NCBI RefSeq assembly: GCF_900176205.1
Contig: NZ_LT859959.1
Location: forward strand, 3,679,001 to 3,743,000
Direction: 5' to 3'
Length of the DNA: 64,000 nucleotides
Source of the DNA: Bradyrhizobium sp. ORS 285
Lineage (GTDB): Bacteria; Pseudomonadota; Alphaproteobacteria; Rhizobiales; Xanthobacteraceae
This document shows, piece by piece, positions 19,104 to 24,186 of this stretch (the first letter of the stretch is position 1; each line of letters opens with the position of its first letter). A program made the position numbers and the translations under genes. A model generated the notes under the pieces. That model worked only from the letters and a program-made list of their open reading frames with translations, was not told the origin of the DNA and searched no databases.

Positions 19104-19691
19104 ATGACCCTTCCCCAGGATACGATCCCGCCGGAGCTCGAGCGCATGAGGTCGCAGATGGGCGCGGCCGTCCGCGCACATTGGAAGGCGGTCCTGATCG
19201 AGGGCATCCTGCTCGCCGTGCTCGGCCTGCTCGCCATGGTCCTCACGCCGCTGGCCAGCCTGGCGGTCACGATCTTCCTCGGCTGGATGTTCCTGATCTC
19301 GGGCATCGCAGGGCTCGCACTCACCTTCTGGGCGCGTGGCATGCCGGGCTTCTGGTGGTCGTTGCTCTCGGCCCTGCTCGCCATCATCGCCGGCTTCATT
19401 CTCGTGGCGCAGCCCGTCCAGGGCACGGTGACGCTAACGATCGTGATCGGCGTCTATTTCCTCGCCGAAGGCGTCGCCACGATCATGTATGCGCTTGAGC
19501 ACCGGCGCGAACTGTCCGGCCGCTGGTCGTGGCTCGCGATCTCCGGCGTCGTCGACATTGCCATTGCCGGCATCATCATTTCCGGCCTGCCGGGCACGGC
19601 GCTGTGGGCGATCGGCCTGCTCGTCGGCATCAACCTGTTGTTCGGCGGTCTGTCGATGATCGGCATGGCGCTGGCGGCCCGAAACGCCTGA
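19104..19691 (+). CDS. HdeD-family (DUF308) membrane protein
   Basis: 195 residues from the ATG at 19104, which has GGAG eight bases upstream; an ATG at 19098 is too close to it. Six hydrophobic segments arranged as three hairpins, with FLGWMFLISGIAGLALTFWA and IGVYFLAEGVATIMYALEHR typical of the HdeD repeat. E. coli HdeD helps acid resistance at high cell density; the role here is inferred only from the family. It is 126 bases after the PrsW gene and could share its transcript. Confidence 0.85.
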   Translation: MTLPQDTIPPELERMRSQMGAAVRAHWKAVLIEGILLAVLGLLAMVLTPLASLAVTIFLGWMFLISGIAGLALTFWARGMPGFWWSLLSALLAIIAGFILVAQPVQGTVTLTIVIGVYFLAEGVATIMYALEHRRELSGRWSWLAISGVVDIAIAGIIISGLPGTALWAIGLLVGINLLFGGLSMIGMALAARNA

Positions 19692-19714
19692 CGACCCGAG
19701 TTTCAACTTTTGGG

Positions 19715-19743
19715 ATGACAAGCGGCGCCGCGGCCGCTATAGG
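19715..19743 (+). promoter_or_regulatory. Sigma-70-like promoter of the aroG leader
   Basis: ATGACA (19715-19720) and TATAGG (19738-19743) are separated by exactly 17 bases. The first base of the leader ATG lies 7 bases after the -10 hexamer, so transcription is predicted to start at or next to the start codon, giving a leaderless leader ORF. Confidence 0.55.
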
Positions 19744-19749
19744 ACGTTC

Positions 19750-19830
19750 ATGATCAACGCCGCCACCAGCTATTATTGGTACTTTACCTACGACAGCTCG
19801 CTGGCGGCGGGAGGATCGCGCTCAATCTGA
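19750..19830 (+). CDS. aroG leader peptide rich in aromatic residues
   Basis: 26 codons: MINAATSYYWYFTYDSSLAA followed by GGSRSI. Residues 8-14 are Tyr-Tyr-Trp-Tyr-Phe-Thr-Tyr, covering all three aromatic amino acids in one run. It directly precedes a GC-rich intrinsic terminator and then the DAHP synthase gene, whose product feeds all three aromatic pathways. The peptide is the sensor of a transcription attenuator: a ribosome short of charged Tyr, Trp or Phe tRNA would stall on codons 8-14. The start codon is at the predicted transcription start, so translation is probably leaderless, with AGGA just upstream of it as an alternative. Confidence 0.88.
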   Translation: MINAATSYYWYFTYDSSLAAGGSRSI

Positions 19831-19880
19831 CACATTGCAGCAAGATATCCGAACAAGCCGCCAGACCTGGCGGCTTTTTT
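19759..19880 (+). promoter_or_regulatory. Four-segment attenuator of aroG
   Basis: Segment 1 GCCGCCA (19759-19765, codons 4-6 of the leader), segment 2 CTGGCGGC (19801-19808, codons 18-20), segment 3 GCCGCCAG (19857-19864) and segment 4 TGGCGGCT (19868-19875) alternate as complements. Pairing 1:2 leaves 3:4 free to form the terminator; pairing 2:3 over 8 bp blocks it. A ribosome paused at codons 8-10 would cover segment 1 and leave segment 2 free, giving antitermination. The geometry is that of trp-type attenuators. Confidence 0.85.
19856..19880 (+). terminator. Attenuator terminator (segments 3:4) before aroG
   Basis: AGCCGCCA-GACC-TGGCGGCT followed by five T's. Perfect 8-bp stem, 40 bases before the GTG of aroG. 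Confidence 0.93.
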
Positions 19881-19920
19881 GTGCCGGCAGGTGCCCATCG
19901 AAAGACTTCAGGAGCCCGCC

Positions 19921-21006
19921 GTGCTGAGCACCACAGACGATCTTCGTATCAAGGAAATCAAGGAATTGAGCCTGCCTGTGGAGGTGATGGGCGAGATTCC
20001 GCGCACCCTCACCGCCACCCGCGTGGTCATGGCCGCGCGCAACGCGATCCACGCCATCCTGACCGGCAGCGATGACCGCCTGCTGGTCATCGTCGGCCCC
20101 TGCTCCATCCATGATCCCGAAGCCGCGCTCGACTACGCCAGCCGCCTCGCCGCCCTTCGCGAGCGCCTCAGTGACCGGCTGGAGATCGTGATGCGGGTCT
20201 ATTTCGAGAAGCCGCGCACCACCGTCGGCTGGAAGGGCCTGATCAACGATCCCGACCTCGACAACTCGTTCGACATTAACAAGGGCCTGCGGCTGGCGCG
20301 CAACGTGCTGTCGGCGGTCAACAATCTCGGCCTGCCCGCGGCTACCGAATTCCTCGACATGACGACGCCGCAATACATCGCCGATCTCGTCGCCTGGGCC
20401 GCAATCGGCGCGCGCACGACCGAAAGCCAGATCCATCGCGAGCTCGCCTCCGGACTATCCTGCCCGGTCGGCTTCAAGAACGGCACCGACGGCAACATCC
20501 GCATCGCGACCGATGCGGTGAAGTCGGCCGCGCATCCGCATCATTTCATGGCGGTGACCAAAGGCGGCCGCTCGGGCATCGCGGCGACCACCGGCAACGA
20601 GGACTGCCACATCATCCTGCGCGGCGGCGCTGGCCCGAACTACGACGCCGCCCATGTCGAGCAGGCCTCCGCCGAGCTGGTCAAGTCCGGCCTGCCGGCG
20701 CGGCTCATGATCGACACCAGCCACGCCAATTCCAGCAAGAAGCCGGAAAACCAGCCGCTCGTGGCCGCCGACATCGCCGGCCAGCTCGCGAACGGCGAGC
20801 AGCGCATCATGGGCGTGATGATCGAGAGCCATCTGGTCGCCGGCCGCCAGGACGTCAAGCCGGGCGTGCCGCTGACCTACGGCCAGAGCATCACCGATGG
20901 CTGCATCGGCTGGGACACGACGGTGGAGGTTCTCGAGCAGTTGGCCGACGCCGTCACGGCACGGCGCGAGAAGCGCGGCGACTCGCTGCGCGAGCGCTCG
21001 GCCTAA
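19921..21006 (+). CDS. aroG: 3-deoxy-7-phosphoheptulonate (DAHP) synthase, class I AroG type
   Basis: 361 residues from a GTG with AGGAG seven bases upstream. It condenses phosphoenolpyruvate and erythrose 4-phosphate, the first step of the shikimate pathway. Signature segments: LLVIVGPCSIHDPEAALDYA (GPCSIH), EIVMRVYFEKPRTTVGWKG, ATEFLDMTTPQYIADLVAWA, IGARTTESQIHRELASGLSC, GFKNGTDGN and MIDTSHANSSKKPENQP. This is the same subgroup as E. coli AroF/AroG/AroH. Expression is evidently set by the leader peptide and attenuator immediately upstream. Which aromatic amino acid gives allosteric feedback cannot be read with certainty. Confidence 0.96.
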   Translation: MLSTTDDLRIKEIKELSLPVEVMGEIPRTLTATRVVMAARNAIHAILTGSDDRLLVIVGPCSIHDPEAALDYASRLAALRERLSDRLEIVMRVYFEKPRTTVGWKGLINDPDLDNSFDINKGLRLARNVLSAVNNLGLPAATEFLDMTTPQYIADLVAWAAIGARTTESQIHRELASGLSCPVGFKNGTDGNIRIATDAVKSAAHPHHFMAVTKGGRSGIAATTGNEDCHIILRGGAGPNYDAAHVEQASAELVKSGLPARLMIDTSHANSSKKPENQPLVAADIAGQLANGEQRIMGVMIESHLVAGRQDVKPGVPLTYGQSITDGCIGWDTTVEVLEQLADAVTARREKRGDSLRERSA

Positions 21007-21346: not shown

Positions 21347-22441
21347 TCATTCCCCAGCGGGCGGATAGAGGTGCGCCTCGCCGCAATAGTCAACCACACG
21401 ATAGCGCGTTTGCAGAGCGGCAGCATGATCCTGCGCAACAAAATCCTCGGCAGTGATGTATTGCGGCCCGACCGGCGCCTTGCCGTAGCCGCCGGGAATG
21501 TCGAGCACGTAGTCCGGCTGGCACAGGCCGGACACCCGCCCGCGCAGCGTCCGAATCAGCGCCTGTCCTTCCGCAAGCGTCGTGCGCAGATGCGCCGTGC
21601 CCGGCGCGAGGTCGCCATGGTGCAGGTAATACGGCTTGATGCGGGTCTCGACGAAGGCGCGCATCAGGGCCTCCAGCGTCGCCGCATCGTCGTTGACGCC
21701 GCGCAGCAGCACCGACTGGCTGACCAGAGGAATCCCTGAGTCGATCAGCCGCGCACAGGCGGCGCGCACCTCCGCACTCAGCTCGCGCGGATGATTGGCA
21801 TGCAGCGCGACCCAGGTCGCGGCTCCCTGCACCTTCAGCGCATCCACCAGCGAAGGCGTGATGCGCTGGGGATCGGCGACGGGCAGCCGCGTGTGGATGC
21901 GGATGATCTTCACATGATCGATCGCGGCGAGATCGGCCATGATCTCCTTGAGCCGCCGCGGCGACAGCATCAGCGGATCGCCGCCGGTGAGGATGACCTC
22001 CCAGATCTCGGCATGCGACTTGATGTAGTCGAGCGCGCCGCGGTAGGCGTCCTCCGACAGCGCATTGTCCTTGCCGGGCCCGACCATCTCGCGACGAAAG
22101 CAGAAGCGGCAATACACCGCGCAGACATGCACGAGCTTGAGCAGCACGCGATCGGGATAACGGTGCACGATGCCCGGCACCGGCGCATGCGCATCGTCGC
22201 CGATGGGGTCGCCGCGCTCGCCGGGCGCAGCTACGAGTTCATCCGCCGACGGCACGAACTGGCGCGCGATCGGATCATTCGGATCGTCGCTGTCGATCAG
22301 GTCGGCGAGATGCGTCGTCACGGCCACGGCATAGCGCTGCGCCACCCGGTCCAGCGCCTCCTGCTCTGATGGCGCAGCCAAGCCCTGCGCCACCAGATCG
22401 GCCGCGCTGCGCAAGGTCGTGGGCCGTTCGATCCGGTTCAT
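21347..22441 (-). CDS. epmB: EF-P lysine 2,3-aminomutase-type radical SAM enzyme
   Basis: 364 residues. The radical-SAM cluster motif is VCAVYCRFCFRREMVG (C-x3-C-x2-C), followed by GGDPLMLSPRRLKEIM, the conserved GGDPL of lysine aminomutases, and PLVSQSVLLRGVND and KPYYLHHGDLAPGTAHLRT. EpmB converts (S)-lysine to (R)-beta-lysine, used by EpmA to modify EF-P. The start codon overlaps the epmA stop (ATGA), so the two are translationally coupled. The divergent efp gene is 1.2 kb away, so the whole modification system is present in one place. Confidence 0.9.
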   Translation of the reverse strand: MNRIERPTTLRSAADLVAQGLAAPSEQEALDRVAQRYAVAVTTHLADLIDSDDPNDPIARQFVPSADELVAAPGERGDPIGDDAHAPVPGIVHRYPDRVLLKLVHVCAVYCRFCFRREMVGPGKDNALSEDAYRGALDYIKSHAEIWEVILTGGDPLMLSPRRLKEIMADLAAIDHVKIIRIHTRLPVADPQRITPSLVDALKVQGAATWVALHANHPRELSAEVRAACARLIDSGIPLVSQSVLLRGVNDDAATLEALMRAFVETRIKPYYLHHGDLAPGTAHLRTTLAEGQALIRTLRGRVSGLCQPDYVLDIPGGYGKAPVGPQYITAEDFVAQDHAAALQTRYRVVDYCGEAHLYPPAGE

Positions 22442-23493
22442 CGCCGCTCACCTGCCGGCGGCGTCCACACCACCTGATCGATCCTGACCGCGCCGGCCGC
22501 CAGCATCACCAGCCGCTCGAAGCCGAGCGCGACGCCGCTCGCCTGCGGCATCTGAGCCACGGCGGCGAGGAAATCCTCGTCGAGCGGATAGCGCTCGCCA
22601 TAGCGCCGCTGCTTCTCCGCCATCTCCTGCTCGAACCGCCGGCGCTGCTCGGCGGCATCGGTGAGTTCGCCAAAGCCGTTGGCGAGCTCGACGCCGCAGG
22701 CATAGACCTCGAACCGCTCGGCGACCCGGAGCTCGCCGGCCTTGGCGCGCGCCAGCGCGGCTTCCGGCGACGGATATTCATACAGCACGGTGACCCGTCC
22801 GTTGCCGAGCTGCGGCTCGACATGCTCGACCAGGACCTTGCTGAACAGGTCCGACCAGGTGTCGTCCTCGCTGATCCGGATCTTGCCAGCGGCCGCAGCC
22901 GCCAGCGCATCGCGGTCGCCCATGCGATCGCGGATTGTGGCCAAGAGGTCAATGCCCGCGTAGCGCGCGAACGCGCCCGCCACCGTCAGCAGCTCAGGCT
23001 CGGCGTAGGGATCGGCAGTGCGGCCGCGGAAGCCGAACTGCCGGATTCCGGTGGCCTGGGCCGCATGGGCAATGACCACGACGGTATCGGCCATGATCGC
23101 ATCGTAAGGCGCCTCCGCCCGGTACCATTCCAGCATGGTGAATTCCGGCAGATGCAGGTCGCCGCGCTCACGGTCGCGGAAGACACGGGCGAACTCGAAA
23201 ATGCGGCTCTCCCCGGCCGCCAGCAGCTTCTTGCAGGCGAATTCCGGCGAGGTTCTCAGATACCGCCGATGCCGGGTTCCGTCCGCCGCGGTCAGCTCGG
23301 TCGCCGGCGCGTGCAGATGGGTCTCGTTGCCCGGCGACACCTGCAGGACGCCGGTTTCGACCTCGGTAAAACCCTGCTCCTCGAACCAGGCGCGCAGGGC
23401 GCGCGTGATGGCGGCCCTGGCTTGCAGAAACGCCCTGACATCGGCGTGCCGCTGCGGCGACCACCAGGGTGACGGGGATGGCTCCTGGGGCAT
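22438..23493 (-). CDS. epmA: EF-P lysyl-lysine ligase (GenX/PoxA type)
   Basis: 351 residues from the ATG at 23493. It is a truncated class II lysyl-tRNA-synthetase paralogue lacking the anticodon-binding domain. Motif 1 region [20 protein letters not shown], motif 2 [20 protein letters not shown], and motif 3 [18 protein letters not shown] are visible. EpmA attaches beta-lysine to the conserved lysine of EF-P. It overlaps epmB by four bases, reads away from efp, and the 126-bp gap between epmA and efp should carry both promoters. Confidence 0.92.
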
Positions 23494-23619
23494 CACGGGA
23501 TCGCCAAAAGGCTGGCAACCCCGGACAAAATCAGTATGTTGCCGGCCGAAACCGCATCCCGCGTCCCGCGGCGCCCAGGCCATGCCCGGCGCCCTCCCCT
23601 CAGTGTCAGGAAAACAGCT

Positions 23620-24186
23620 TTGAAAGTCATCGCCAGCTCTATTCGCAAGGGTAACGTCATTGAGCAAGATGGAAAGCTCTATGTCGTCGTGACCGCCGAG
23701 AACATCCATCCCGGCAAGGGCACCCCGGTCAGCCAGATCGAAATGCGCCGAATCAGCGACGGCGTGAAGATCTCCGAGCGCTTCAAGACCACCGACCAGG
23801 TCGAGAAGGCGACGATCGAGGAGCGCAACTTCACCTTCCTGTACGAGGATGCTGACGGCTTCCACTTCATGAACCCGGAGACCTATGACCAGGTCCAGGT
23901 GCCGAAGGACGTGGTCGGCAATCAGGCCGCCTATCTGCAGGAGAACATGACCGTCAAGCTGTCGATGCACGACGTGGTGCCGGTGGCGATCACCCTGCCG
24001 CAGCGCGTCACGCTCGAGGTCGTCGAGACCGAGCCGGTCACCAAGGGCCAGACCGCGTCGTCGTCCTACAAGCCGGCCGTGCTCTCCAACGGCGTGCGCA
24101 CCGGCGTGCCGGCGCACATCACCGTGGGCACCCGGATTGTGGTCATGACCGAGGACGGCTCCTATTGCGAGCGCGCCAAGGACTGA
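23620..24186 (+). CDS. efp: Elongation factor P
   Basis: 188 residues, exactly the usual EF-P length, from a TTG with AGGA upstream. The KOW-like N-domain starts [20 protein letters not shown], and the modified lysine is Lys33 in the loop [12 protein letters not shown]. Two OB domains follow, ending in [22 protein letters not shown] rescues ribosomes stalled at polyproline. The clustered epmA/epmB indicate that Lys33 receives beta-lysine. The use of TTG as start is the only oddity. Confidence 0.97.

Follow-up and report, generated by a model that had tools for sequence, protein, structure and literature searches.

The window analysed here is a stretch of 64,000 nucleotides from Bradyrhizobium sp. 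ORS 285 (contig NZ_LT859959.1, positions 3,679,001 to 3,743,000; the coordinates below count from its first letter), in which a gene for 3-deoxy-D-arabino-heptulosonate 7-phosphate (DAHP) synthase is preceded by a short leader open reading frame (ORF), by alternating complementary segments and by a T tract. DAHP synthase is the entry point of the shikimate pathway, and its genes in E. coli are textbook cases of TyrR and TrpR repression and of feedback inhibition. The region 19715-19920 upstream of the Bradyrhizobium gene is, in all likelihood, a ribosome-mediated transcription attenuator of this gene, a reading which draws on sequence analysis and fold modelling and invokes the classical mechanism of the trp, phe and his leaders.

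The product of the controlled gene passes the TIGR00034 (aroFGH) model with 531.1 bits (cut-off 173.2) and matches PF00793 with an E value of 6.5e-96. Since TIGR00034 is passed while the AroG equivalog NF006723 is just missed (566.4 bits, cut-off 568), the name aroG is approximate. No other type I copy was found in the 7.8-Mb genome, which also encodes one type II DAHP synthase; no such leader was seen in the approximately 400 nt inspected upstream of the type II match.

The leader ORF starts with ATG at 19750 and comprises 26 codons plus a TGA stop (19828-19830); it reads MINAATSYYWYFTYDSSLAAGGSRSI (...SYYWYFTY...), with aromatic residues at codons 8-12 and 14. In the 3' direction from the leader start follow GCCGCCA / CTGGCGGC / GCCGCCAG / CTGGCGGC and then T6, with 40 nt left up to the DAHP synthase gene. 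Leader ORF, aromatic codons, alternating segments, T tract and 40-nt distance, when reread in the window, all lie where the original prediction had placed them. The features are:

19715-19720, + strand: -35-like box ATGACA of the leader promoter; box pattern kept in Bradyrhizobium loci
19738-19743, + strand: -10-like box TATAGG; sequence reading and box pattern in Bradyrhizobium loci
19750-19830, + strand: leader ORF of 26 codons plus TGA, MINAATSYYWYFTYDSSLAAGGSRSI; direct reading, similar leaders in relatives
19759-19765, + strand: segment 1, GCCGCCA, putative protector arm, lineage-limited; reading and per-leader complementarity test
19771-19791, + strand: candidate sensor codons 8-14, Tyr-Tyr-Trp-Tyr-Phe-Thr-Tyr; reading, conservation and masking model
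19801-19808, + strand: segment 2, CTGGCGGC, 5' arm of the predicted antiterminator, within the leader ORF; alignment, pair test and frame count
19855-19876, + strand: predicted intrinsic terminator hairpin; terminator scan and pair test
19857-19864, + strand: segment 3, GCCGCCAG, common to antiterminator and terminator; terminator scan, alignment and pair tests
19867-19874, + strand: segment 4, CTGGCGGC, 3' arm of the terminator; terminator scan and pair test
19875-19880, + strand: T tract, predicted 3' end of the attenuated transcript; sequence reading
19921-21006, + strand: type I-alpha DAHP synthase (aroG-like) with GTG start, the presumed controlled gene; TIGR00034 and PF00793

A promoter of the form TGACA-N16..19-TATN-N7..12-ATG is present in 62 of the 62 Bradyrhizobium loci examined (its first two boxes, TGACA-N16..19-TAT, occur in 5 of 3100 shuffles), and its spacing suggests that the transcript starts at or near the leader ATG, i.e. 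that the leader mRNA would be leaderless. The DAHP synthase gene has its own Shine-Dalgarno sequence, AGGAG at 19910-19914 ahead of the GTG at 19921. Translational control by sequestration of this sequence was considered and dropped; AGGAG at 19910 falls outside the hairpins.

Distinctness and conservation of the leader

Within 19300-20100, a terminator scan returned the hairpin 19855-19876 alone (shuffles expect 0.4, sd 0.6), and 19750-19885 folds with -51.6 kcal/mol (z -3.86), a value that 1 of 200 shuffles equalled. In the entire window, a purpose-made detector found 38 terminator-like hairpins (16 on the + and 22 on the - strand), a frequency that would speak for an ORF lying by chance before a constitutive terminator. 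Just one of the 38, however, is preceded by an aromatic-rich short ORF (12-60 codons with at least four Phe, Tyr or Trp in eight codons, in the 200 nt before the hairpin), and this is the hairpin before the DAHP synthase gene. Chance is contradicted by conservation, i.e. by the element accompanying the gene in 185 of 185 genomes, by compensatory changes and by codon bias, and is hardly conceivable. The string YWYF was discarded as a genome-wide marker, being unspecific (two forward and no reverse matches; two and one with the reversed-pattern control); the weight rests on the combination of features and on conservation, not on YWYF alone.

Conservation was assessed in 229 upstream regions, 183 of which show leader plus terminator in an automatic test; this is a chosen sample with one best-matching gene copy per genome, such that the fraction is not an unbiased prevalence, and the test let a few doubtful cases pass (L219, with a wrongly assigned terminator) and missed some likely ones (L220). 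Two loci were left out of the 229, one with 49 nt of upstream sequence (L038) and one encoding a type II enzyme (L111). Sixty of the regions comprise all 17 non-genus matches of the family list, nine that make the order list complete and 34 picked from the phylum list, one or a few per family. Alignment A1 holds 76 nonredundant leaders of the 183, the window's own among them, and was used to build the covariance model R1; codon counts refer to the 60 of these 76 loci with a full gene. On its own genome, R1 scores the window element at 114.9 bits and, a second copy described below aside, the next match at 23.1 bits.

The aromatic codons are nearly constant in the genus. Of 51 Bradyrhizobium leaders of equal length, all 51 have Trp at codon 10 and Phe at codon 12, and 50 have Tyr at codon 11; codons 9 and 14 are Tyr or Phe in all 51 and codon 8 in 46. 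Across the 76 nonredundant leaders, Phe and Tyr occur in all and Trp in 57, the other 19 holding just Phe and Tyr. The original prediction of a sensor for all three amino acids is thus plausible in Bradyrhizobium but is not a general rule, Trp being optional outside some clades. Furthermore, wobble codons are enriched: the TTT:TTC ratio is 140:38 in the leader windows, whereas the genes of these 60 loci have 49:330 (Fisher p 4e-53), and the TAT:TAC ratio is 75:66 versus 112:226 (p 6e-5). This bias would make sense at a stall site if slow wobble codons are preferred there, and part of it could come from avoiding GC in the loop.

At the RNA level, the pairs of the terminator (3:4) are standard in 95.9% of the cells of A1, with 53 cells changed on both sides against a shuffle mean of 11.9, and controls in which the arms were slid pair to 22-57%. 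For the antiterminator (2:3), 83.5% of cells are standard (slid controls 17-68%); 24 cells are changed on both sides versus a shuffle mean of 7.6, and five pairs show such double changes versus a mean of 2.3, a number reached in 2 of 500 shuffles. Covariation of 2:3 sits at the edges because its core is nearly invariant. In the 76 aligned leaders, the GGCGG core of segment 2 falls in frame 2 of the leader 63 times, in frame 1 nine times and in frame 0 four times; occurring in all three frames, it must therefore be conserved as RNA rather than as peptide. We also observed by eye that a purine-rich motif, GGGAGG/GGAGGAAGG, recurs after segment 2 (A1 columns 127-132) and that TCCGAA/CCCGAA recurs directly 5' of segment 3 (columns 190-200), each in many leaders; these motifs might extend the antiterminator past an internal loop.

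The use of three frames also bears on whether the leader RNA or peptide acts in trans as well, as rnTrpL and peTrpL of S. meliloti are reported to do, which would then drive part of the conservation. The layout does resemble that of the leaderless rhizobial trpL (PMC7298713), and the promoter spacing implies a leaderless small mRNA. Outside the aromatic window, however, the peptide differs between families, and with segment 2 in three frames conservation tracks the cis structure, so that a trans role of this kind seems improbable.

Proposed mechanism and its fold model

Transcription would begin at or beside the leader ATG. With Tyr-, Trp- and Phe-tRNA charged, the ribosome would pass codons 8-14, cover segment 2 and continue; free segment 3 could then pair with segment 4, and RNA polymerase would halt at 19875-19880. 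When charged aromatic tRNA is scarce, the ribosome would stall at codons 8-14 and thereby hide segment 1 and leave segment 2 exposed, which could then pair with segment 3, block the terminator and allow the DAHP synthase gene to be transcribed. The attenuator thus very probably switches the gene on at low Tyr, Trp or Phe. From the sequence features we infer translation of the leader, termination and the response to starvation, and a shortage of any single one of the three amino acids would be expected to suffice.

This scheme was examined in a masking model, in which 29 nt are hidden under the ribosome and the RNA up to segment 3 is folded at equilibrium. In the window, the probability of 2:3 pairing is 0.99 with the ribosome at codons 2-11, 0.87 at codon 12, 0.70 at 13 and 0.67 at 14; past the sensor it falls to 0.31 at codon 15 and 0.09 at codon 16, and it is 0.00 from codon 17 to the stop as well as without a ribosome. 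In the model, the window acts like a textbook attenuator. Across the 76 leaders, pairing between segment 3 and the RNA upstream of it averages 0.76 with the ribosome stalled at the aromatic codons; the mean is 0.13 for the lowest later codon, 0.46 for the stop codon and 0.51 in the absence of a ribosome. Stalled pairing is at least 0.5 in 70 of 76 leaders and exceeds the respective shuffles in 71, and in 60 leaders pairing drops to 0.2 or below once the ribosome has reached some later codon. Among positive controls, two pheM and two pheL leaders behave in the same manner (0.79-0.97 stalled, 0.03-0.08 at the stop).

The same attenuator could effectively sense a single amino acid, with one codon class (Phe TTT, or Tyr) deciding and the others being passengers. 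This would fit the presence of Phe and Tyr in all 76 leaders, with Trp in just 57, and the wobble bias, which is strongest for Phe codons; moreover, a response to limitation of Phe but not of Tyr is reported for C. glutamicum aroF, whose leader contains Phe-Tyr-Phe (PMC11802643). In the window, however, modelled antitermination is high at every codon from 8 to 11, the Tyr and Trp codons among them, and Trp10 is retained in all 51 equal-length Bradyrhizobium leaders. We therefore regard a single-amino-acid sensor as unlikely, though it is the most serious competitor to a sensor for several aromatic amino acids. A general sensor of translation or Rho activity without amino acid specificity is far less probable still: attenuation by an upstream open reading frame (uORF) of this kind occurs in rhizobia, as at the S. 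meliloti DUF1127 uORF (PMC12218461), but the leader described here has a strong intrinsic terminator with a T tract, an antiterminator and near-constant aromatic codons in the genus.

A number of results weigh against aromatic attenuation as drawn above. In the model, the antiterminator at the stop falls to half its stalled value or less in just 36 of 76 leaders (30 of 76 without a ribosome), six leaders stay below 0.5 even when stalled, the stalled mean remains at 0.48 after shuffling of tail and spacer (0.76 for the real sequences) and the single trpL control drops merely from 0.85 when stalled to 0.58 at the stop. In A1, many rows have broken pairs at the edges of 2:3 (46 of 76 at column 127, 23 of 76 at 121 and 20 of 73 at 120), and shuffles of aligned relatives overstate significance, as related rows can beat shuffles without any structure. 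Judged solely by duplex energy, 2:3 does better than 95 of 100 shuffles in just 37 of 76 leaders (median rank 6), this test being weak because the region is GC-rich. Finally, complementarity of segments 1 and 2 is not general: 13 of 76 leaders rank at 5 of 100 shuffles or better, and the median rank is 39.

About half of the relatives would, by the model, need kinetic timing, i.e. a ribosome that sits on segment 2 as segments 3 and 4 emerge. As for the predicted four-segment design, segments 2-4 are conserved and segment 1 is strong in the window, one of the best cases of complementarity to segment 2 (none of 100 shuffles equals it), but it does not extend to the family as a whole. No column-wise conservation of segment 1 pairs was seen in A1; six Burkholderiales leaders also rank at 0-5 in the complementarity test (L019, L021, L028, L034, L035, L050). 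Support for the attenuator at the sequence level is made up of its anatomy, its conservation, compensatory changes, the RNA-level constraint on segment 2, the wobble bias and, for the window, the agreement with the folding model.

Distribution and a recoded second copy

In the genus sample, the DAHP synthase gene was found in 249 of 265 genomes (E 1e-60 or better). R1 was searched in 195 genus genomes and matched in 187; by comparison of the lists by eye, all 185 searched genomes with the gene have a match (weakest E 1.3e-14), and of the ten without it eight have none and two have weak ones (E 1.5e-4 and 4.6e-4). In 11 genomes, in which coordinates were compared by eye, the R1 match ends 38-47 nt 5' of the matched gene segment. 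The attenuator that the original prediction had proposed is supported by relatives, which keep the aromatic codons and, with compensatory changes, arms 2, 3 and 4, and by the presence of the element in every sampled genus genome that has the gene. In wider samples, the gene is patchy, being present in 118 of 391 genomes and 4 of 47 genera of the family sample, in 39 of 297 genomes and 11 of 122 genera of the order sample and, at the same cut-off, in 225 of 398 genomes of the phylum sample, many of these being other subgroups of the enzyme. This patchiness of the type I gene hints that gene and leader were transferred together.

Similar units precede the gene at most sampled loci of Rhizobiales, Burkholderiales and Xanthomonadales, including Bradyrhizobium, Mesorhizobium, Devosia, Methylosinus, Burkholderia, Paraburkholderia, Massilia, Janthinobacterium, Cupriavidus, Xanthomonas, Stenotrophomonas, Dyella, Rhodanobacter and others. 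At the best-matching copy per genome, the leader was not found at the named loci examined in Enterobacterales (5), Vibrionaceae (2) and Chitinibacteraceae (3), nor at those of Azoarcus, Thauera, Dechloromonas, Chromobacterium and Methylotenera. The alignment across relatives that had been suggested as a check shows codons and arms preserved, but the element reaches further than the rhizobia. In a tree of 96 DAHP synthases (75 with and 21 without leader), the leader label needs just 6 changes (6-7 in bootstraps; shuffled mean 19.2), and thus the leader mostly tracks one part of the gene family; support at the base is weak (65/58).

Among 299 phylum genomes searched with R1, 75 have a match at E 1e-3, 35 of them with at least 42 bits. 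Several weaker full-length matches are other attenuators: in the range of about 31-39 bits, we identified by eye pheM-pheS (L285, L286), pheL-pheA (L287, L288) and trpL (L291), and L289, from its translations, as a Phe leader before a pheA-like gene. Such matches can serve as controls. Two further matches were set aside, L290, which precedes a leuA-like gene and has no aromatic leader, and L292, with no evident leader.

R1 also picks up a second full-length element, roughly 200 kb upstream of the window in the ORS 285 genome (G000:C1:3476328-3476482, 70.2 bits; L233 1501-1655). Its leader, MITVATHRFGRWTHRSSRAAGGSRMI, comes with the same hairpins and precedes a DUF1127 gene. Of 26 genomes of the genus, selected as close relatives or for having several R1 matches, ten carry this copy, i.e. 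the ORS 285 genome itself and G002, G026, G085, G100, G101, G102, G200, G223 and G232 (the relatives' copies being L281-L284 and L293-L297), and none was found in the close relative G086. The gene 3' of the copy was assigned to DUF1127 by PF06568 in nine (32-41 bits, cut-off 23.3) and by eye in G002. Weak R1 matches in G152, G162 and G234, which have no matching hairpin in the terminator search, and in G155, with an unrelated leader, were rejected as further second copies. Away from aroG, G234 shows a full-length R1 match of 41.0 bits without the usual terminator (G234:C1:5523303-5523454, L298).

Differences between the second copy and the aroG leader of the same genome are concentrated in the sensor, with codons 7-15 differing at 178 of 270 sites versus 35 of 450 sites in codons 1-6 and 16-24. 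In nine copies, codons 7-15 read His-Arg-Phe-Gly-Arg-(Trp/Phe/Ile)-Thr-His-Arg, with synonymous changes at codons 8, 9, 11 and 15, and the counterpart in the aroG leaders is Ser-(Tyr/Phe)-(Tyr/Phe)-Trp-Tyr-Phe-(Ser/Thr)-Tyr-Asp. The G102 copy is mixed (Arg-Arg-Phe-Trp-His-Phe-Thr-His-Arg) and looks like an intermediate; the aroG of this genome is also more distant (87% versus at least 93% for the other nine). Promoter boxes, start, hairpin segments and terminator are retained, and in the masking model stalling at codons 8-12 yields 0.61-0.99, against 0.13-0.47 with the ribosome at the stop and 0.05-0.95 with none.

The second copy is probably a duplicated aroG leader, with the aroG leader as its source. 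It is possible, and we propose it tentatively, that evolution here rewrote the sensor cassette of an attenuator, i.e. that a natural respecification from aromatic to arginine and histidine supply took place before the arginine-rich DUF1127 gene. Speaking against respecification, Phe9 stays in all ten copies and an aromatic residue at codon 12 in eight, and CGG or AGG replaces CTG in segment 2 of five copies, at the cost of one antiterminator pair. Decay or a general translation sensor are the alternatives.

Elsewhere in the window, at 21347-24186, an elongation factor P gene (+ strand) adjoins radical-SAM lysine-aminomutase-like and class II tRNA-synthetase-like genes (- strand), a layout which we take to be an elongation factor P lysylation set.

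Relation to known leaders

Comparable leaders include pheL (pheA) and pheM (pheST) of Enterobacterales, which share with the window element a Phe-rich leader, a terminator and an antiterminator and are similar in the masking model; they are devoted to a single amino acid, however, and serve other genes. At gathering score, the leader has no match in Rfam 15 (the window and five loci were searched); Phe_leader RF01859 scores 24.0 and 23.7 bits on two of the five (L010, L040), short of its gathering score of 55. The rhizobial trpE(G) leader trpL/rnTrpL is likewise a leaderless short ORF with consecutive codons for the product amino acid and an attenuator, and is found in Rhizobiales (PMC7298713, PMC10117765), but it is confined to Trp and trpE, and the peptides quoted in PMC7298713 are, by eye, dissimilar outside the aromatic codons.

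Leaders before DAHP synthase genes have been described or proposed elsewhere. In C. glutamicum, an aromatic leader peptide, aroR, precedes aroF, and control of the operon is attributed to ribosome stalling (PMC4046766, PMC11802643). It resembles the window element in having a leader peptide with aromatic residues before this very gene and differs in belonging to an actinobacterium and in containing Phe-Tyr-Phe only, with a reported response to Phe and not Tyr, in contrast to Tyr, Trp and Phe in the window; this comparison is one of descriptions. The Acholeplasma motif uORFC-13-1 is also a uORF with a Phe codon and a terminator before aroF, but its 24 examples come from Acholeplasma and environmental sequences only, and the available part of its description gives at least one Phe codon and mentions no Tyr/Trp run (PMC8632094). 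In gammaproteobacteria, attenuation has been suspected at type I-alpha genes, namely before Vibrio aroA-I-alpha(Y)-tyrA (Table 7 of PMC1173090, from Merino's website) and at aroF of E. coli and Shewanella (PMC2659441); the present element was not found at the best-matching copies of the five Enterobacterales and two Vibrionaceae genomes. Among the matches listed by our literature search, which consist mostly of titles and beginnings of abstracts, include few subscription journals and do not cover the 2004 Vitreschak survey of proteobacteria, we recognised no description of a leader before an alpha-, beta- or xanthomonad DAHP synthase. As to the second copy, S. meliloti also has a DUF1127 gene behind a short attenuating uORF, but that system is presumed to be Rho-dependent and has a Shine-Dalgarno sequence and C-rich codons, whereas the Bradyrhizobium copy features an intrinsic terminator and a recoded leader of the aroG type (PMC12218461).

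Overall, our data suggest that many proteobacteria other than E. coli read their supply of aromatic aminoacyl-tRNAs at DAHP synthase by means of one conserved leader. Its natural variants, with and without Trp codons, with segment 2 in three frames and with a recoded duplicate, form a set well suited to asking which leader codons set the response. The element is a new and widespread addition to a known class of attenuators; the recoded duplicate is the boldest part of this reading.

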